Shown piece after piece: positions 13 through 24,231 of a DNA stretch of 36,790 nucleotides. The stretch is taken from positions 1-36,790 of the forward strand of contig JASEEX010000019.1 in the NCBI GenBank assembly GCA_030019415.1, written 5' to 3'. The notes under the pieces are model-generated. The model had not been told where the DNA came from. It did not search any database and saw only the letters and a list, made by a program, of their open reading frames with translations. Source of the DNA: Thermodesulfovibrionales bacterium. GTDB taxonomy: Bacteria; Nitrospirota; Thermodesulfovibrionia; Thermodesulfovibrionales; SM23-35. The first letter of the stretch is position 1; each line of letters opens with the position of its first letter. The position numbers were made by a program, and so were the translations under genes.

Positions 13-1326
13 TTAAAAATTGCAATTTTTTGTCTTGACAAATGGGTCCACCTTAGCCTTCACCTTTAAATCAAATCTTTTACCTGGCAGAAACCAAAAT
101 AAATCAACTGTCTTAGCCATATCTTGAGCTGGCATGAGGGTCGAGGTGCTTTGAAGCTTCTTCCAGCTATCTTCTCCTAATATTTCTTCATATTCTTTTA
201 TTGCTATTTTTTGCCCTTCTTTCCCGATGAGGTCTTTAGACATCATGGCTTTGAAAAATTTAAAAACCATCATTTCAGGATGGGCCTCTGCAATTCTACG
301 CGCTTGCAACTCCGTATCTTCCGGGGAAAATACATCAACGCCTTTCAGTTTTAAATATTTTTGTGCTACTTTTTTGCCTTCATCTTTAAGTATTTGCCTG
401 TCATCTTGCTTTTTCCAGTAATTCTTTTTCCCTATTTTTTTTGAAGCATGTTCCAAATATGTTCTGACTTCTTTGTGGTCAAAGAGATCAGGCTTGGGTA
501 AAATGTTAGCAATAGGGCTACCTACTATAAGATTTGTTACGTCCTTACCAATAGCTTCATTAAGGATGCTCGACAGTTTTTCCTTGATTTCATCCGTTGT
601 CGGAATCTCAAAATTATCTATTGCTGAACAGACATAAATTGTGGCATTTCCATAAAATACCAATGGGCTCCAGCCCTTTGCTGAAAAACTTTCAACCGCC
701 GCTCTATGTAGAAAGATGGTAGATACCCCTCTAATATTTACATGATGATAAGCAAATTTTAGGTGATTAGCTAAGAAACTCCTTTCTATAGATGTTAAAC
801 CTCCAAAGACTCCCTGAGCTGAGCAGAAATTATCCACAACATCAACAATATCTGCTAAAGTCTTCCATCTATCAGTACCCTTCAGAATAGCTGCCACAAT
901 TTTTGCATCGGTTCTTTCATGTCTCATATGAAGGTTAATACAGTTTTCGATGACCTTAATGATCTTTTCATCGAGACCTATGAATCCTAAGGAATTGCTT
1001 AGCAAAGGTACAATCTCCCTCGTTAACTTAGGGTCAATATCTGATATAAAACCACTCTTGCCTAAGATATAACCTTGCCATTCTTTTCTCTCTTTACCTA
1101 TGTCATGTGCTATTACAGAAGCAAGAAGAACCTTTTCTTCATCTTCTAACAGGTTAAAATGTTGTGGTTTTCTTAAAATTGGAAGAAGCTGGATAATAGC
1201 ATCAAGTTCTACCATCGAATGTTCAAAAAGGCTCTGCTCAAATTCCCTCCTTTTTGCAGTTAGTCTTTTCCAGTTTCTGTTAATCATCCAGATAGCAGCA
1301 TTTTCTTTTATTTTTTCAAACTCCAT
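13..1326 (-). CDS. cas10d: Type I-D CRISPR Cas10d (Csc3), N-terminal HD half, probably truncated
   Basis: Large-subunit protein of a type I-D CRISPR effector. In this subtype the HD nuclease that cuts target DNA sits in Cas10d rather than in Cas3. The 437-residue product has an HD-type domain: FEHSMVE near residue 36, AHDIGKE with H74-D75, and NLHMRHE further on. It is followed by the stretch HVNIRGVSTIFLHRA that I associate with Csc3. The start is ATG at 1326 with GGAGG four bases upstream. Family members are usually about twice this length, so the Palm-like C-terminal half is missing. The last conserved-looking piece is FWFLPGKRFDLK, and the stop lies in an A/T palindrome at the window edge. 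Upstream on the same strand lie cas3 relics and cas6, the expected companions. I infer a decayed effector. The HD domain could still fold, but interference seems unlikely. Family call rests on remembered motifs. Confidence 0.8.
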   Translation of the reverse strand: MEFEKIKENAAIWMINRNWKRLTAKRREFEQSLFEHSMVELDAIIQLLPILRKPQHFNLLEDEEKVLLASVIAHDIGKERKEWQGYILGKSGFISDIDPKLTREIVPLLSNSLGFIGLDEKIIKVIENCINLHMRHERTDAKIVAAILKGTDRWKTLADIVDVVDNFCSAQGVFGGLTSIERSFLANHLKFAYHHVNIRGVSTIFLHRAAVESFSAKGWSPLVFYGNATIYVCSAIDNFEIPTTDEIKEKLSSILNEAIGKDVTNLIVGSPIANILPKPDLFDHKEVRTYLEHASKKIGKKNYWKKQDDRQILKDEGKKVAQKYLKLKGVDVFSPEDTELQARRIAEAHPEMMVFKFFKAMMSKDLIGKEGQKIAIKEYEEILGEDSWKKLQSTSTLMPAQDMAKTVDLFWFLPGKRFDLKVKAKVDPFVKTKNCNF

Positions 1327-16082: not shown

Positions 16083-16085
16083 TGT

Positions 16086-16093
16086 GATATAAT
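16086..16093 (+). promoter_or_regulatory. Extended -10 box directly before the truncated nuclease gene
   Basis: TGATATAAT reading (TG-A-TATAAT, box at 16088-16093) ends seven bases before ATG 16101. No ribosome site lies between. A transcript from it would begin at or next to the ATG. Confidence 0.5.
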
Positions 16094-16100
16094 TTGTTTG

Positions 16101-16568
16101 ATGTCTGATATTGATTTATTCAGAGAAAAACTTCAGTCATTAATCTCAAAGTTCGAAAAGGATAAAACGTACTATTTATCAAAAGGTTACCCAGAGGCTC
16201 AGGTCAGAATCGATTTCATAAATCCATTTTTTGAAGCCCTCGGATGGGATATAGAGAATAAAGCTCAAAAGCCTCCTCATGAAAGGGATGTAATTGTAGA
16301 ACTTTCACCTGAGACAACAAAAAGACCTGATTATAATTTCCGCATAAACGGTATCACAAAGTTTTTTGTTGAGGCAAAACCCCCTTCTGTTGCACTTGAT
16401 GATGTAAACCATGTACTTCAGGCAAAAAGTTATGCATGGTCAACTAAAGAGGTTTATTTTGTAGTCCTTACAGACTTTGAGGAGTTTAAACTCTTTGATG
16501 CCTCCTTAAAACCAAATCCAAAATTCCCGGATGAAGGATTAATATTTTTTTCTTTAAATTCATTATAA
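16101..16568 (+). pseudogene. Truncated type IIG/HsdR-like restriction nuclease domain
   Basis: 155 residues matching only the N-terminal nuclease part of a large restriction enzyme: FREKLQSLISKFEKDKTYYL, then EAQVRIDFINPFFEALGWD, then the PD-(D/E)xK core RPDYNF ... FFVEAKPP (D77, E91, K93), and VLTDFEEFKLFD. Family proteins carry on into a helicase or N6-adenine methylase and target recognition for some 1000 residues. Here the frame stops after IFFSLNSL, 39 bases before the Hhe gene. All active-site residues remain, so a stand-alone nuclease cannot be excluded. An evolutionary remnant cut by insertion of the next gene is simpler. I start at ATG 16101. Confidence 0.75.
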
Positions 16569-16569
16569 T
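16564..16569 (+). promoter_or_regulatory. Candidate -10 for the Hhe gene
   Basis: TATAAT 38 bases before the Hhe ATG, overlapping the stop of the truncated nuclease gene. No convincing -35, only a T-run. Weak. Confidence 0.3.
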
Positions 16570-16607
16570 TAACGTATATATCCGATGTTTATTGGGTATC
16601 TTGGATT

Positions 16608-19600
16608 ATGAACAACCGTCAATCAAAATCCCGTGTAACCCGGCGCATCGAAGAGTGGAAACAAAAACTTGTAGATCTTACGAGGCGCAATCGCCTTCTA
16701 TATTTTAGGCCGAGTAAAACCTCAACCCTTCTCATTGAACACCCCGAACTTCAGACAATTTTTGAGAGGCTTGTAGTAAAAGGAAGAGGCTGGGAGTTTT
16801 GGCTACCACCTGATGAAGAAAACCAAAACCGGGAAGGTCACCTCTTTAAAGATGGCGCTATAGAGCCTAAAGGAACAGTCGAAACTAAACCCATCAAAAA
16901 AGATCAATTAATTTGTAAGGAACAGGATAAGGACCAAATAGAAAAAATTCTTAAAAATCTCTATAGACGAGCAACCGCAGATTACCAAGAAAAAGGCATT
17001 CGTATTCTTCATCTTGCCTTTGGTCTGTTAGTATGGAAAGAAGCAGAAACATCTGAAAAAGTGTGTTCCCCCATAATTTTAGTCCCGGTTAAACTTACTC
17101 GGGAATCGGCAAAAGACCCTTTTAGCCTTCACCTTACTGAGGAAGCAGATGTCGTCCTTAATCCTGCTTTACAGGTTAAACTGCAAAATGATTTCAAGAT
17201 CGAGCTTCCATCGTTGCCAGAAGACTGGGAAGAAAATAAGCTCATTGATTACTTTGATTCGATAGAAAAATCTATTAAACAACTGGGATGGACAGTAGAT
17301 TACTCTGTTCAACTGGGCCTTTTTTCATTTCATAAATTGGTGATGTACCAAGATTTCACAACTAATACATCACTTGTAGAAAAACACCCTATTATACTAT
17401 CACTTTCGGACGAAACCATAGACAATCTTGTGCAAGACGACTTACCAAATATTCGAGATCTTGATACTGTACAACAGCCTATTAATACATTTCAGATTCT
17501 TGACGCTGACAGCAGTCAGCAGCTTTGTATTCAGTATGCCTTGCGAGGACAAAGTTTTGTTATGCAAGGACCCCCCGGAACAGGTAAAAGTCAAACTATT
17601 GCAAATATCATAGCTGAATGTATAGCTCATGGTAAAACAATACTTTTCGTTAGTGAGAAGATGGCAGCTCTTGAAGTAGTATACAAACGACTAAAAGCTG
17701 CTGGACTAGCCGATTTTTGCTTGGAACTTCACAGCCATAAAGCAAATAAGCGAGAAGTCGTAACAGAAGTTGCTCGTTCTTTTAGGGAACACAGAATTCC
17801 GAAGGTAACCATGACAAAGTTAGAGTTTGAAAAACTTACCAAATGCAGAGAAAAACTAAACAACTACGTACTTGCACTCCACAGTGTACGAGAACCTTTA
17901 GGTTTAAGCGTTTACGAAGTAATTAGTTTACTTACCAAACTTGAAAAGATTCCTTTTGTACCTCTTAAACTGCCAGATCCACGCACTCTTACACCCAATC
18001 GAATACAGGTGCTGGAGGAGTTAATACTCCAATTACAAAGGGTTTGGAAGGTAGCTACTGAAGATAAAGAATTTCCATGGCGTGGATTCAGGGAAGCTCA
18101 GTTTACTTTGGAAGTCCGCTCAAATTTGTCAGAACTTCTCGGTGATTTGATTTCTTTAATCAATATACTAAAAGAGGAATCATCTCAGTATGCTACGGTT
18201 ATAGGGGTGGATACACCACCAAAACTTGCTGACGTAGAGTGGTTATTGAAAATAAGCGAACTACTCATACAGAATCCTGTACCTCATTTAAACTGGATAA
18301 CCCATCCTCATATTGATAGTATTATCGAAGAAGCAAAACATTACCAAGATATGTGCGGTTTTTATCTAAACACTCGAGATAATCTTAAAGAACGATACTC
18401 ACAATCATTTTTTGAACTTCCGACTGGATTACCAAATCAGATTAAAGATAAATTGGATAAAACATTAGAAATTCTTGCCCATGATGAGCTCAAAAGCTCA
18501 GAATTACTAAAATACCGCAAAGAACTCCTTCATTTATGTAAAGAGACCCAACGCTTAATCAGGGAATGGCTTCATGATGCAAACGAAATTATTCAACACC
18601 TTGGTTTACCAGATACAGATATTACTATTGAAAGGATTAAACAACTTGCACGGCTTGCACTTCTATGTCATACACAAACAAGACCTGATCAAAGTTGGTT
18701 AGACCCTCTACGCTTACAAGAGGTGCGCGGAATTTTTGCAAAAATAAGAGATGAGTATGAACAGTATAATATCAAAAAGCAAAAACTGTTGGAAATATAT
18801 GATGAGAGCTTTTTTGAGCTAGAATTAGAGAGACTTATCGAGCATTTTAACGGTGTATATCGTACTATATTTAAGTGGTTTTTACCCAAATTTTATAGAG
18901 ATAAGAAAAATATTATTAGAACAACTCGAACAGGTGTTATACCGCTTTCTATACGAGAAGACCTTCTTGCTGCACGGGAACTACTTAGACTAAAGAATAA
19001 ACTTGAAGCAGATCGTAATTATGTAAGTAATATTTTGGGTCAGCACTATCAGGGCTATAACACTGATTTTAAAGTAATTGAATGTAGTCTTGACGTAGCC
19101 AATGAAGCTCTTGAACTTGCTGATATAAGCCCTGTGCCAAATAAACTATCTGATTCTATTTCTATTGGGAAAATTCCACCACCAGAACTTCGCACTATAG
19201 GAACACGACTTTTGAACTCCGTAAACCAGTGGGAGCAATTATCACAAACATTGGTATCGCTCTTTCCATTGCAGAATATACCACATACAGAGATACCGGT
19301 ACATCACACACCCCTCTCACAGTTTGAGCAATGGTTGCAAGAGTTAGAAATTCCGCTCACTGACCTTTATAACTATATAGAGCAAGTTTTTAATACCTGT
19401 TATGGAGAGTTACATACTGATTTTCTTACAATAATACAAGACTTAAAATCATTAGATAAAATTCGTGAGATAAAAGCCCACATTACAACGGAATCCAAAC
19501 GCTTACAAGATGAATTTGGAAGACGCTATTCTGTGATGGAAACAGCGTGGGATGATGTTTTAACATCACTAAATTGGACAAGAAAGGTTCGTGAACTCTT

Positions 19601-22583
19601 TGGTAATCGTCCTATTCCGGAAGCTTTTGCAGTCTTTGTAACAAAAGGAACTATTCCAGCACCACAAAACAGCACGCTTAATAAAATTTACTCACAAACA
19701 AAAGAACTTTTAAGTGCTTTTGAAGATAAATTTAAGACTTCGTCTTCAATCATAGAAAAGCCTGGGTTTTTAACTACGGCCGTGGAAAAACTCGAAAATC
19801 ATTTAAAACCCCATGCCCCTGCTTATAAAGGAACGCTGTTGCATGAGTTAACTTTTGAACTTCTCAAAGAAGGATTAGAACAGTTTCATTCTCGTATAGA
19901 TGATGTTCAAACTTGGATAGATTTCAAAGCTATTGAGAAAAAATTTTATGAGGAAAAACTCGATGAATTTTTTTCAAAACTTGTAAAAACTCCCCTCCTT
20001 GCTTCACAATTATCAGATGTGTTTCGCAAGTCTATTTATCAGGCATGGACCGATGGTATCTTTAAGGAAGACCCCTGCTTAGGAGAGTTTAGATGTCAAC
20101 ATCATGAACAACTTATCGACGAATTCCGTAAACTTGATAATAAATTGGTTTCCCTTTCCTCTCAACGTGTAATAGAAAAAGCAAATAGCCTAAAACCGAA
20201 AGATATCATACAAGCAGGCGAATCAGACATTTTGCTCAGGGAAGCATACAAAAAACGCCGCCATTTACCACTTCGCAAACTCTTCGAAAAAATCCCAAAT
20301 TTACTACTTCGAGTCAAACCTTGCCTTATGATGAGCCCCATTTCAGTTAGTCAGTTTCTTAATCCAGAACATTTACAATTTGATATGGTTATTTTTGATG
20401 AAGCCTCTCAGATTTGTCCTGAAGACGCAATAGGGGCAATTTACCGAGGGAAACAACTTGTTGTTGCAGGAGATAACAAACAACTTCCACCAACAGCGTT
20501 CTTTCAGCAAGCCATGTTGGAGGAATATGATTGGGATGACATCAGTGATGAAGAGTTCGCAATTTTTGACAGCATTCTTGATGCATGCATTCCGATTTTG
20601 CCTCATCAAGAAACATTGCTAAGATGGCATTATAGAAGTAAACACGAATCGCTCATTACTTTTTCCAATGCACGATTCTACGAAAACCGTTTAATTACTT
20701 TCCCTTCTTCTTTGCATGAGCATGAAACCTTAGGAATAAAATTTCATTATGTGCCTGATGGAGTTTATGACAGAGGTGGAAAACGGGATAACCCGCGTGA
20801 AGCCCAAGTTATTGCTGATATTGTTTTTGAGCACTTTAAAAAATATCCGAAGAAAACTCTTGGAGTGGTTGCATTCAGTATTGCACAAATGATAGCTATA
20901 GAAGATGAAATTGAACGTCAGCGTAGAGAGCAACCAGAATTTGAACGATTTTTTAGTGAAGATCGCTTAGAGGGATTTTTTGTTAAAAATTTAGAAAATG
21001 TGCAAGGAGACGAACGAGACGTAATTATTTTTAGTATAGGTTATGGAAAAGACCAACAAGGACGAATAACTATGAATTTTGGTCCACTAAACAAAGATGG
21101 CGGGGAGCGACGACTTAATGTTGCCATAACCAGAGCACGTGAGAAAGTTATCTTAGTTAGCTCGATTAAGGCAGCAGATATTGACCTGAATACAGTACGG
21201 GCACCAGGTGTTTTGAATTTACACAAATATCTTGATTATGCTGAAAGGGGTAAAAAAGCGCTTGAATTAGAATTCACTGTAGAAGGAGAATATGAATCAC
21301 TGTTGGAGGAGGAAGTTGCAAATAAAATTAAGGAGCTAGGTTACAACGTAGTACCTCAAGTAGGTTGTAGCGGCTATCGAATTGATCTTGGAGTACTTGA
21401 CCCCGCTAAACCTAGAAGGTTTATCATTGGTGTGGAATGTGATGGAGCAAGTTATCATTCTGCTTATACTGCGAGAGACAGAGATCGTTTACGTCAGCAA
21501 GTATTAGAAAGCCTTGGCTGGCGTATTCACAGGATTTGGTCATTAGATTGGGTAAATAGACGTGAAACAGAAGTCAAGCGGTTAAAACAAGTCATTGAGT
21601 CCTGTCGAAACAACCCTACACCTCCCTCAACAAATACAAAGCCACTAAATATACCAGAAGGTGACGTACAAGAAATAAAAGTTTTTGGGCTCGATCAAAT
21701 AAATACCCTCCCAGGGACGACCCGATATAAATTTTGTGAACTCAAACCTAATAGTCAAGTTGGCCCTGATTTCCACTCAGCAGAATACAGGACAGAGCAA
21801 TGTCGACTTCTTGAGAAATTAGTAGAAAAAGAAGGTCCGATACATATCGATTATGCAACACGTCGATTGGTAACAGCGTGGGGCTTAGGACGTATTGGAA
21901 CTCGCATCGTTGAAGCAGTTAAAGAAGCCGTAAAGCTTTGTGAGAAGAATGGCAAGTTAGTAATCAGAGGAAAATTTCTATGGCCTCCTAATTTAAATGC
22001 TGTCCCAGTCCGAATTCCAGAGGATGACGACCCTAATGCTTTTCCCCGACTTATTGATTATATACCTCCTGAGGAAATAAAAAATGCAATAATACTAATT
22101 GTTAAGCAAACTATTGGTGGTATAGGTGTTGACTCATTATTGACTACAACAGCACGTATCTTTCGATTTGACAGGACAAGCACCAATATTCAAAACAAGC
22201 TACAGTCTGTCTATAAAAAAATGATCCGTGCAGGCGAACTTTCTCAAAATGATAGTTTGGTAACATTAGGCACAACTACCCAGTTATCTAAAGAGAATAT
22301 AGACAGTAGTAGAGTGCAAGATGAAAAAATAAAAGAAGAGGATTTACAACATCATACGGGCGTAAACGATGACGTTCTTTGGGTCTCAAAAATTGAGGCA
22401 AAAGTTTGGTACAAATTAGCGCATTGGGCCAAGACTAAGCAACATTTCAAACCCGATGAACGTTCTCTCCTTTTTAATATTGGTAAAAAATTATCATTCA
22501 AAAAATTACCCTCTCAAAATCAGGCTAAAAAAGGTAAAAAGCTTTTTGAAAAAGCGATAAACTCAGGATTCATCACAAGATAA
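16608..22583 (+). CDS. hheA: Giant DUF4011-helicase-nuclease-DUF3320 antiphage protein, Hhe type
   Basis: 1991 residues. N-terminal DUF4011 signature RRIEEWKQKLVDLTRRNRLL; SF1 helicase motif I MQGPPGTGKSQTIANII (K327); a long alpha-helical insertion of about 800 residues; motif II VIFDEASQICPEDA (D1264, E1265) with VVAGDNKQLPPTAFF; motifs V/VI VQGDERDVIIFSIGYG and NVAITRAREKVILVSS. Then a Vsr/DUF559-type nuclease (about 1560-1660: YRIDLGVLD, GVECDGASYH, LGWRIHRIWSLDW) and a DUF3320 domain (FHSAEYRTEQCRLLEKLVEK onwards). I recall this architecture as the single-gene Hhe system in the 2020 defence-island survey by Gao and colleagues. Action presumably is recognition and cutting of invading nucleic acid. 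Base composition is visibly more A/T-rich than purA or serA, with many TTA/AAA codons, which suggests transfer. No clear ribosome site at ATG 16608. Confidence 0.88.
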   Translation: MNNRQSKSRVTRRIEEWKQKLVDLTRRNRLLYFRPSKTSTLLIEHPELQTIFERLVVKGRGWEFWLPPDEENQNREGHLFKDGAIEPKGTVETKPIKKDQLICKEQDKDQIEKILKNLYRRATADYQEKGIRILHLAFGLLVWKEAETSEKVCSPIILVPVKLTRESAKDPFSLHLTEEADVVLNPALQVKLQNDFKIELPSLPEDWEENKLIDYFDSIEKSIKQLGWTVDYSVQLGLFSFHKLVMYQDFTTNTSLVEKHPIILSLSDETIDNLVQDDLPNIRDLDTVQQPINTFQILDADSSQQLCIQYALRGQSFVMQGPPGTGKSQTIANIIAECIAHGKTILFVSEKMAALEVVYKRLKAAGLADFCLELHSHKANKREVVTEVARSFREHRIPKVTMTKLEFEKLTKCREKLNNYVLALHSVREPLGLSVYEVISLLTKLEKIPFVPLKLPDPRTLTPNRIQVLEELILQLQRVWKVATEDKEFPWRGFREAQFTLEVRSNLSELLGDLISLINILKEESSQYATVIGVDTPPKLADVEWLLKISELLIQNPVPHLNWITHPHIDSIIEEAKHYQDMCGFYLNTRDNLKERYSQSFFELPTGLPNQIKDKLDKTLEILAHDELKSSELLKYRKELLHLCKETQRLIREWLHDANEIIQHLGLPDTDITIERIKQLARLALLCHTQTRPDQSWLDPLRLQEVRGIFAKIRDEYEQYNIKKQKLLEIYDESFFELELERLIEHFNGVYRTIFKWFLPKFYRDKKNIIRTTRTGVIPLSIREDLLAARELLRLKNKLEADRNYVSNILGQHYQGYNTDFKVIECSLDVANEALELADISPVPNKLSDSISIGKIPPPELRTIGTRLLNSVNQWEQLSQTLVSLFPLQNIPHTEIPVHHTPLSQFEQWLQELEIPLTDLYNYIEQVFNTCYGELHTDFLTIIQDLKSLDKIREIKAHITTESKRLQDEFGRRYSVMETAWDDVLTSLNWTRKVRELFGNRPIPEAFAVFVTKGTIPAPQNSTLNKIYSQTKELLSAFEDKFKTSSSIIEKPGFLTTAVEKLENHLKPHAPAYKGTLLHELTFELLKEGLEQFHSRIDDVQTWIDFKAIEKKFYEEKLDEFFSKLVKTPLLASQLSDVFRKSIYQAWTDGIFKEDPCLGEFRCQHHEQLIDEFRKLDNKLVSLSSQRVIEKANSLKPKDIIQAGESDILLREAYKKRRHLPLRKLFEKIPNLLLRVKPCLMMSPISVSQFLNPEHLQFDMVIFDEASQICPEDAIGAIYRGKQLVVAGDNKQLPPTAFFQQAMLEEYDWDDISDEEFAIFDSILDACIPILPHQETLLRWHYRSKHESLITFSNARFYENRLITFPSSLHEHETLGIKFHYVPDGVYDRGGKRDNPREAQVIADIVFEHFKKYPKKTLGVVAFSIAQMIAIEDEIERQRREQPEFERFFSEDRLEGFFVKNLENVQGDERDVIIFSIGYGKDQQGRITMNFGPLNKDGGERRLNVAITRAREKVILVSSIKAADIDLNTVRAPGVLNLHKYLDYAERGKKALELEFTVEGEYESLLEEEVANKIKELGYNVVPQVGCSGYRIDLGVLDPAKPRRFIIGVECDGASYHSAYTARDRDRLRQQVLESLGWRIHRIWSLDWVNRRETEVKRLKQVIESCRNNPTPPSTNTKPLNIPEGDVQEIKVFGLDQINTLPGTTRYKFCELKPNSQVGPDFHSAEYRTEQCRLLEKLVEKEGPIHIDYATRRLVTAWGLGRIGTRIVEAVKEAVKLCEKNGKLVIRGKFLWPPNLNAVPVRIPEDDDPNAFPRLIDYIPPEEIKNAIILIVKQTIGGIGVDSLLTTTARIFRFDRTSTNIQNKLQSVYKKMIRAGELSQNDSLVTLGTTTQLSKENIDSSRVQDEKIKEEDLQHHTGVNDDVLWVSKIEAKVWYKLAHWAKTKQHFKPDERSLLFNIGKKLSFKKLPSQNQAKKGKKLFEKAINSGFITR

Positions 22584-22606
22584 TTTTTAGAAAGGGGTCT
22601 TTAGAG

Positions 22607-22632
22607 AGTCTGGTCTTCAATCTTCACTCAAC
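22607..22632 (+). repeat. Repeat block A1 before hicBA (pairs with 23223-23250)
   Basis: AGTCTGGTCTTCAATCTTCA followed by CTCAACA recurs nearly unchanged at 23223-23250 before the HNH gene. A second shared block, TTCAGGTAAAATAA, occurs at 22677 and at 23371. The two intergenic regions are therefore related. Confidence 0.65.
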
Positions 22633-22709
22633 AGCATATCTAATAGAAATCAAGAATGTATGATTCCAGGGGGAAGTTCAGGTAAAATAAGGGCATGAAG
22701 GAGGCAGAG

Positions 22710-22952
22710 ATGAAAGAGGCTCTTCAACATACAATTAAAGCATTTATCAGGAAAGGCGAGAAATATTACGTTGCCGAATGTCTTGAAATACCTGTTGTAA
22801 CTCAGGGGAAGACTCTTGATGAAGCTGTAGCAAACCTCAAAGAGGCGGTTGCACTCCATATAGAAGGTGAAAACCTTGAACAACTCGGACTCGCGCCAAA
22901 CCCAACACTGATTATCACAATGGAGACGGAGCCCGCTGCAAGTGTCGCCTAA
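22710..22952 (+). CDS. hicB: HicB-family antitoxin
   Basis: 80-residue antitoxin of a HicAB type II module. Seen: HTIKAFIRKGEKYYVAECLE, then IPVVTQGKTLDEAVANLKEA, the usual HicB core that masks the HicA active site. No C-terminal ribbon-helix-helix or HTH domain is evident. I start at ATG 22710 because AAGGAGG (22698-22704) lies properly in front; an in-frame ATG at 22695 would place that site inside the gene. It overlaps hicA by 11 bases, and order is antitoxin first. Confidence 0.88.
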   Translation: MKEALQHTIKAFIRKGEKYYVAECLEIPVVTQGKTLDEAVANLKEAVALHIEGENLEQLGLAPNPTLIITMETEPAASVA

Positions 22953-23190
22953 ACTCCAGCGACTTTCAGGAAAAGAAGTATTATCAATCCTCTCAAAATT
23001 TGGGTTTACAGTTTATTCCCAGAGAGGCAGTCATGTAAAGCTGAGGCGGACTTCTGTTTCTGGAGAAATACAATCTTTAACCATTGTAATGCATGATGAA
23101 CTCGATATCGGTACGTTACGAGCAATTGTAAGACAAGCCAGTCGTTTTATTCCTGAAGATCAACTCAAAAAGGAATTTTATTCTGATTAA
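22942..23190 (+). CDS. hicA: HicA-family mRNA interferase toxin
   Basis: 82-residue dsRBD-like RNase toxin. Motifs: LSGKEVLSILSKFGF, then QRGSHVKLRR with the catalytic histidine H31, and IVMHDELDIGTLRAIVRQAS. All core parts of a YcfA/HicA protein are present, so it should be active and need hicB. Start is GTG 22942 inside the end of hicB, a coupling that keeps toxin below antitoxin. Confidence 0.88.
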   Translation: MSPKLQRLSGKEVLSILSKFGFTVYSQRGSHVKLRRTSVSGEIQSLTIVMHDELDIGTLRAIVRQASRFIPEDQLKKEFYSD

Positions 23191-23222
23191 GCATCACTAC
23201 CATTCAAAAAGGCAATGAGGTC

Positions 23223-23250
23223 AGACTCTGGTCTTCAATCTTCATTTAAC
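23223..23250 (+). repeat. Repeat block B1 before the HNH gene
   Basis: Partner of 22607-22632. A third, shorter relative (TCTGGTCTTTAATTTTGAT) lies at 23290-23308. Block B2, TTCAGGTAAAATAAAAGCAA at 23371, matches 22677 directly before hicB. Confidence 0.6.
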
Positions 23251-23400
23251 AAGTAAACGAAACCAGTAGGATCTAAAAATTTAAATATGGTCTGGTCTTT
23301 AATTTTGATATTTTCTAAGACATGAATAGGGCTTATGGAAATATTTTAAGCCAATGATTTTAGGAAAAAATTCAGGTAAAATAAAAGCAATAGAAAAGGG

Positions 23401-23751
23401 ATGGACATTAAAATGAGAAACAGGCTTTACTCAAGACATAAAAAACCACAGCCTAAAAAGCCACTCAGCAATAAATCTGTTTTTGAAATCGCAAGAGAGT
23501 TAAAAGAACTTAGTAGGCCAACCAGTAGTTACAGGGAACAATCTCTGAAGATTCACGGCCTCATCTGTGCCAAATGCGGAAGGGAGTTTGATTACAAAGA
23601 CAGGCATCTCCTTACGGTACACCACAAAGATGGGAATCGCCTGAATAATCCCCCCGATGGGTCTAACTGGGAGAATCTCTGTATCTACTGCCATGATGAC
23701 GAACACGGTAGAGGACTACTTGCTGATTATCTAAAAAATAAAGAACAATGA
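23401..23751 (+). CDS. YajD-like HNH nuclease
   Basis: 116-residue protein with a lysine-rich N-terminus and an HNH zinc-type nuclease core: CAKCGREFDYKDRH, TVHHKDGNRLNNPPDGSNWE, NLCIYCHDDEHGR. The two CxxC pairs, the HH pair and the N of ENL make a complete HNH site, and layout matches E. coli YajD, a nuclease of unknown role. Start ATG 23401 gives MDIKMRNRLYSRHKKP; ATG 23413 is an alternative. It follows hicBA behind a duplicated upstream segment, which suggests the two were carried in as small cassettes. Confidence 0.82.
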   Translation: MDIKMRNRLYSRHKKPQPKKPLSNKSVFEIARELKELSRPTSSYREQSLKIHGLICAKCGREFDYKDRHLLTVHHKDGNRLNNPPDGSNWENLCIYCHDDEHGRGLLADYLKNKEQ

Positions 23752-23813
23752 AATAATTTTTATTTCAGTCACCTTGCAGGAAAATATAGTAAACGCACTA
23801 AATATTGTTACAT

Positions 23814-23885
23814 CGTCATTGCGAGCGAAAGCAAAACAATCTCATAAAAACTGGATTGCTTCGTCGCTCCGCTCCTCACAATGAC
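23814..23885. repeat. CATTGCGAGCGAA dispersed palindromic repeat
   Basis: CGTCATTGCGAGCGAAAGC at one end and GCTCCTCACAATGACA at the other form imperfect inverted arms around GCTTCGTCGCTCCG. This is a very common dispersed bacterial repeat type. It lies in the 480-base gene-free stretch 23752-24231. Confidence 0.8.
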
Positions 23886-24008
23886 AATCTATTTATTACG
23901 TTTGTATTAGTTTCCATTAAAGTCTCATTTTAAATCTTCTCTACTGCCTTAAATAGCTGAAAAATTGTATCCGATTTAGAAATAATCATGTTACTTATTA
24001 CCGACTTA

Positions 24009-24098
24009 GTCATTCCTGCGGAGGCAGGAATCCAGTCGCCGTCCCTGTGAAAACAGTGGACTAAAGATTCTGGATTCCGCATCAAGTGCGGAATGACA
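24009..24098. repeat. GTCATTCCTGCGGAGGCAGGAATCCAG-type dispersed repeat
   Basis: Left arm GTCATTCCTGCGGAGGCAGG and right arm CTGGATTCCGCATCAAGTGC ... GAATGACA are inverse partners. A half copy of the same family is at 33021-33060. The rest of 23752-24231 is A/T-rich and I see no gene in it. Confidence 0.8.
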
Positions 24099-24231
24099 CA
24101 GAGAGAATGATTCTCACGCAAATTTACTATCATGAAAAATTTTTCATGATGATTTTAAAAAGAAATTCTGTTAGAATGATGGTGTTCATGATAAAAGTAG
24201 CTCAGATATATTTTGACCTCCGGAAAAATTG

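Follow-up and report, generated by a model that had tools for sequence, protein, structure and literature searches.

A gene in a 36,790 nt contig from a Thermodesulfovibrionales bacterium (JASEEX010000019.1; the whole stretch is referred to below as the window) raises the question of which family its 1991-residue product, here designated P0001, belongs to, and of what a very long helical insertion contributes to its helicase. An initial annotation made from the sequence alone had described an Hhe-type defence protein and had offered the insertion as a candidate sensor. In the literature searched, no description was found of how DUF4011-type defence proteins recognize invaders.

Domain architecture and catalytic residues

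The ORF is a single intact frame, and Pfam searches bore out the annotated combination of DUF4011, an SF1 helicase, a Vsr-type nuclease and DUF3320 in one chain (Table 1). The components by which the superfamily is recognized, namely DUF4011, both helicase halves (AAA_11 and AAA_12, with motifs I and II) and the MTES_1575 nuclease, all scored above Pfam cut-offs, as did DUF3320 (residues 1721–1768, E 9e-12), which has been interpreted as a winged helix–turn–helix (wHTH) domain (PMC3710099). The match of DUF559 to the nuclease was weak. The residues singled out in the initial annotation for mutation were numbered exactly: K327 of Walker A was unchanged in 27 of 27 rows of an alignment of proteins with the same two-unit arm as P0001 (see below), and E1265 of the DEAS motif and D1593 of the nuclease were unchanged in all 62 rows of a second alignment (A3), in which E1610 and D1612 of the nuclease were likewise invariant.

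When the helicase model was compared with solved structures, it matched Ighmbp2 with Z 18.5 (rmsd 4.3, 288 residues aligned), Upf1 with Z of about 18 and Dna2 with Z 17.2 (rmsd 2.7, 253 aligned). As modelled, the core is an SF1B helicase with Upf1/Dna2-type RecA domains.

A small three-helix module that matches no Pfam family makes up the last 88 residues. The same module was found at the C-termini of two SF1–MTES_1575 proteins lacking a Pfam DUF4011 match (L044 and L158) and in AIPR-type proteins, one annotated as AIPR (L189) and two assigned by C-terminal resemblance (L187 and L188). The tail is an accessory module, mobile among defence proteins. Two Actinoplanes homologues, L083 and L084, extend for 1057 and 577 residues from the ECDG motif of the nuclease to the end, where 270–300 is usual.

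Table 1. Features of the P0001 locus, with positions in the window and residues of P0001
Feature	Position	Strand	Residues	Evidence or remark
P0001, DUF4011–SF1B helicase–Vsr-like nuclease–tandem wHTH protein	16608..22583	+	1–1991	1991 aa, ATG start
DUF4011 domain	16665..17183	+	20–192	Pfam PF13195, E 1.6e-33
Motif I/Walker A, GPPGTGKS (K327)	17568..17591	+	321–328	Invariant in two-unit alignment
Helical arm between motifs Ia and II	17925..20207	+	~440–1200	AlphaFold2, nested pairing ranges
Module A1	18114..18422	+	503–605	Short-form profile match; unbiased self-scan
Module A2	18513..18824	+	636–739	Profile match, self-scan; A1 helix pattern shifted by ~132
Single-copy basic tip	18831..18932	+	742–775	Between A and B stacks
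Module B1	18930..19346	+	775–913	Profile match, self-scan
Module B2	19404..19886	+	933–1093	Profile match, self-scan; B1 helix pattern shifted by ~160
Motif II/Walker B, DEASQ	20397..20411	+	1264–1268	Invariant, 62 rows
RecA2 helicase half, motifs to VI	20586..21164	+	1327–1519	AAA_12; Ighmbp2/Upf1 and Dna2 model matches
Vsr-like PD-(D/E)xK nuclease, REase_MTES_1575	21306..21593	+	1567–1662	Pfam E 3.3e-36
First predicted winged helix, overlaps DUF3320	21780..21983	+	1725–1792	H-H-H-E-E in model
Second predicted winged helix	22068..22268	+	1821–1887	H-H-H-E-E in model
C-terminal tail module	22317..22580	+	1904–1991	Missing from the 94.5% identical G308 orthologue
8.1-kb island between comF and PHP gene	16083..24228	.		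comF–PHP adjacency in relatives; low GC
Lone HsdR_N/type IIG N-terminal piece	16098..16568	+		156 aa; matches 7–143 of a 1011-aa type IIG profile
hicB–hicA toxin–antitoxin pair (hicB 22695–22952; hicA 22942–23190)	22695..23190	+		HicA Pfam 3e-14, HicB-like 3e-4
Small HNH endonuclease	23401..23751	+		HNH Pfam 9e-8

Genomic context and horizontal transfer

In two relatives belonging to this family, comF lies next to the PHP gene, with gaps of 87 bp (G012) and 121 bp (G005), and the sequence between these genes in the window is therefore an 8.1-kb insertion. The junction resembles a hotspot, being empty in these two genomes and holding about 0.8–1 kb or more in several others of the family. The atypical base composition reported in the initial annotation was recovered, with a GC content of 0.36–0.40 over approximately 16–24 kb compared to 0.42–0.46 upstream and 0.40–0.44 just downstream.

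The adjacency of hicBA and the HNH gene to P0001 was likewise as annotated, but within the family these genes are not conserved as neighbours: neither they nor the HsdR_N piece, which is probably the relic of a restriction gene, recurs next to homologues, and all three were rejected as partners of P0001. A PADLOC scan of 102 immediate homologue neighbours gave scattered matches and no conserved partner gene, and no modification gene was found linked to the P0001 gene. The sole repeated arrangement was a downstream operon conserved in a clostridial subclade with two to three arm units (L058, L104 and L132), encoding a Ser/Thr kinase, an FHA-annotated protein and a 4Fe-4S (radical SAM-like) protein. 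Elsewhere in the window, positions 23790–24080 carry two dispersed repeat families (cattgcgagcgaa... and cattcctgcggaggcaggaatccag...) with more than 20 matching places in the genome, and the protein encoded at 13–1326 on the minus strand gave a weak Cas10d/Csc3 match (18.7 bits against a cut-off of 60) that is probably due to chance.

A copy with 94.5% DNA identity over 16544–22307 was found in a genome of another family of the same class (G308), the identity extending from 64 bp ahead of the start codon to codon 1900. This copy lay in a different context, among trp-like genes as judged from an ORF reading, and for this reason the gene apparently moves alone. These sequence comparisons show a recent horizontal transfer of the P0001 gene. 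The copy (L043 1-170, G308:C110) ends early, without the last ~88 residues; it is cut near codon 1900 by a repeated ATTCCCC-type sequence close to the contig end, which is perhaps the end of an insertion element.

These data also bear on whether P0001 instead has a housekeeping role, in DNA repair or against plasmids, and lies in the island by chance. In P. aeruginosa a DUF4011 gene is core and flanks a defence hotspot (PMC10250203), and the lack of recurrent defence neighbours beside homologues would fit such a role. However, a search of 60 other genomes of the family and order turned up no close copy, the distribution is patchy, and both the recent transfer and the fact that the nearest named families (Hhe, ProA and PDC-S37) are defence families argue against it. 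We consider a housekeeping role improbable.

Family assignment

The Hhe label did not hold. The NCBIfam Hhe model (NF042953) scored 919.8 bits (E 4e-276), less than half of its cut-off of 2000, and the NCBIfam ProA model (NF058533) scored 1418.9 bits against a cut-off of 1500, its match spanning the helicase, nuclease and wHTH part. The top whole-protein PADLOC match was PDC-S37, a single-gene phage defence candidate (1528.7 bits, E 0, in three stretches), whose profile aligns through the nuclease up to the wHTH part, compared to 630.3 bits for the PADLOC Hhe model. As neither NCBIfam score reached its cut-off, P0001 was filed as a PDC-S37-type protein of the wider superfamily rather than as Hhe.

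The architecture pointed the same way. P0001 runs for 329 residues beyond the nuclease, DUF3320 included, whereas the Hhe profile ends 110 positions after its match; in the Hhe-like relatives L051 and L056 the chain ends directly behind the nuclease, and no wHTH/DUF3320 was found in L051. The initial annotation had itself named a domain order other than that of Hhe as evidence against its reading, and the order does differ, P0001 adding the tandem wHTH/DUF3320 region and the tail. Hhe membership was ruled out by scores and architecture combined. Genuine Hhe membership, with the helical insertion playing a passive role, would account for the DUF4011, helicase and nuclease held in common, for the very low E-value and for the two-unit length of the arm in L051 and L056, but given the much better ProA and PDC-S37 scores and the additional C-terminal domains it is highly improbable.

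ProA is further characterized by an N-terminal extension of approximately 350 residues before DUF4011, which in P0001 starts at residue 20. A homologue with the extension (L045) reached 2128.8 bits with the ProA model, and the extension was also found in L089, where part of it looks transglutaminase-like (E 0.007). Neither HEPN nor transglutaminase had a Pfam match in P0001, and there is no room for them ahead of DUF4011. P0001 is a member of the PDC-S37/ProA branch of the DUF4011–SF1–Vsr superfamily. No text on PDC-S37, or on ProA as a defence protein, was found in the literature searched.

Modular organization of the helical arm

The variation in the insertion was assessed in 97 homologues, drawn from genomes, plasmids and also viral contigs in a sampling biased towards relatives of P0001. 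The spacing between Walker A and Walker B was quantised, at ~628 residues in the majority and 760, 822–943, 1207–1257 and 1499 residues in the remainder, with P0001 at 943. A profile of the short insertion passed over P0001 in overlapping pieces (profile positions 1–226, 124–411 and 262–571). Such overlaps on long insertions indicate that two parts, A and B, are repeated and the remainder is not; indeed, coverage of the short-form profile climbed from one to two to four over A and B only.

In profile–profile comparisons, A1 matched A2 (hhalign 98.2%, E 6e-14) and B1 matched B2 (98.7%, E 2e-16), while A modules showed no relation to B modules or to the flanking parts (probability 38% or less). 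A scan of 210 window pairs made without the short-form profile returned offsets of 133 and 160 as the top matches. Chance or artefact as the source of the repeats was ruled out by the controls (A against B, and head and tail regions) together with this unbiased scan. P0001 thus carries two A and two B modules around the tip, which revises the initial annotation: a helical insertion of about 800 residues between motifs I and II is present, but it is not one undivided element.

The order AAtBB, with t denoting the tip, was found in 20 of 32 two-unit forms, and the number of modules rose to at most four of each kind, by profile, in L068, in the order AAAAtBBBB. Tandem duplication of an A–B block was ruled out, as the order is A-A-B-B and not A-B-A-B. 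Module counts fail in some divergent members, and in a minority of two-unit or longer proteins the profile missed a copy or gave an odd string, such as AAAtBBAtB in L102, so that strict pairing of A with B holds for the majority and not for all. The tip is single-copy in most long forms and net positive in 95 of 96 homologues; the conserved region ahead of motif II is more basic still, and the charge of the tip does not prove nucleic-acid contact.

Predicted shape of the arm

Structure prediction, which had been proposed for the insertion, gave an AlphaFold2 model in which the arm is all helical, with block pLDDT mostly 75–93 and a pTM of 0.39. Compact PDB bundles aligned to nested ranges of the model (400..1200, 500..1104, 568..971, 613..927 and 646..877), although these matches were weak (TM ~0.1 or less, Z 6 or less). 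An antiparallel hairpin with its midpoint near residue 770, where the tip lies, would be expected to give nesting of this kind. The order A(n)–tip–B(n), as opposed to A-B-A-B, is also what layer-wise growth of a two-stranded arm would require. We therefore infer an antiparallel hairpin from the alignment ranges and helix patterns of the model.

Evolution of arm length

Global alignments of sister or near-sister proteins located the length differences on either side of the tip, with paired insertions of 143 and 123 aa between L081 and L118. Global alignment of other pairs gave insertions of 151 and 168 aa (L132/L104), 102 and 63 aa (L125/L096), and 106 and 146 aa (L088/L060, the last in two pieces) in the same arrangement. 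A tree built from the motor and nuclease requires no fewer than 14 changes in the number of arm units, compared to a mean of 35 when shuffled, and 11 changes were forced by well-supported branches for the two-unit class alone. Divergence between A copies and between B copies was correlated (rho 0.49, uncorrected for kinship).

Arm-length classes could instead have arisen by swapping of whole arms between lineages through recombination rather than by paired duplication. Copies within one protein are mostly old, with median identities of 27% for A and 30% for B, and yet sisters differ in unit number, which would fit swapping. On the other hand, the L081 copies are fairly young on both sides (58% for A and 55% for B) and resemble the single copy of L118, which looks like paired duplication. 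Swapping is a possible, if tentative, explanation. Our own reading, for which we judge the case evenly balanced, is that the arm is a telescoping hairpin of n outgoing A and n returning B modules that evolves in whole A+B layers while the tip and motor stay fixed, and that the distance reached by the tip consequently varies in discrete steps and changes frequently, plausibly to suit phage targets or to evade phage inhibitors.

Neither arm modules nor arm-length variation was found described in the literature searched; the module grammar is the new part, and the gene itself is a new member of a known defence superfamily. This grammar turns a vaguely defined helical insertion into a testable machine, made up of a motor, an arm whose layers can be counted and a single conserved tip. 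Relatives that are one layer apart, such as L081 and L118, offer a natural test of whether specificity depends on reach, and a two-part insertion obliged to match on both strands of a hairpin represents an unusual case of coordinated protein evolution.

Proposed mechanism and nature of the target

Taken as a whole, we consider it reasonably probable that the P0001 gene encodes a self-contained, horizontally acquired anti-phage helicase–nuclease with a paired-layer hairpin arm between motifs Ia and II. The SF1B core would translocate on nucleic acid, presumably DNA, driven by ATP, the C-terminal tandem wHTH domains would hold the DNA, and the Vsr-like nuclease would cut it without a modification enzyme. 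The first RecA domain would bear the antiparallel arm, with the A stack leading out, the matching B stack leading back and the basic tip at the far end. In P0001 this would amount to two layers, with A1 and B2 paired at the base and A2 and B1 further out. With layers gained or lost as A+B pairs, the length of the arm would shift in fixed steps while the tip and motor stay. The arm may thereby keep the tip, acting as a sensor or clamp on DNA or on some target protein, at a defined distance from the motor, and the tip may contact nucleic acid. Judged from sequence, the likely function is modification-independent DNA restriction with the arm as a spacer or sensor.

The target could alternatively be RNA or a transcription or translation complex, attacked in the manner of Upf1/Sen1 or HelD with the arm as a pry bar, infection then being stopped by cell shutdown and not by cutting of phage DNA. 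This rival has to be taken seriously, since most of the structures closest to the core are those of RNA helicases (Ighmbp2, Upf1, Sen1 and Setx). The SF1 enzyme HelD reaches into RNA polymerase by helical arms, and RAP-domain proteins were among the weak matches of the nuclease. However, the fusion to a Vsr-type PD-(D/E)xK nuclease and the pair of winged helices speak for DNA, and Dna2, a DNA nuclease–helicase, matches the core almost as well as the RNA helicases do. We regard an RNA or complex target as unlikely, and retain DNA restriction as the preferred reading.

Comparison with known systems

Among the named families, Hhe shares DUF4011, the SF1 helicase and the Vsr-like nuclease with P0001, but its profile leaves no space for the wHTH part. 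ProA differs in its N-terminal extension, which P0001 lacks. The PDC-S37 profile has a length of 1550, close to that of one-unit homologues, whereas P0001 has a two-unit arm and the tail module.

The giant MTES_1575 proteins, with the order HEPN–transglutaminase–SF1 helicase–Vsr–wHTH, have the helicase–Vsr–wHTH core in common with P0001, which has neither HEPN nor transglutaminase; for these proteins, modification-independent DNA restriction with recognition by the C-terminal winged helices has been proposed (PMC3710099), and no mention of arm modules was found in the parts of this paper examined.

The best-ranked Foldseek matches of the arm model were mostly the arms of SMC, MukB, Wadjet and Rad50, with weak scores. 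As proposed here for P0001, these systems carry a long antiparallel arm with a functional tip on an ATPase. The ATPase is a different one and the likeness seen is a weak one of shape (TM ~0.1 or less), and, unlike their arms, the arm of P0001 grows by pairs of homologous modules.
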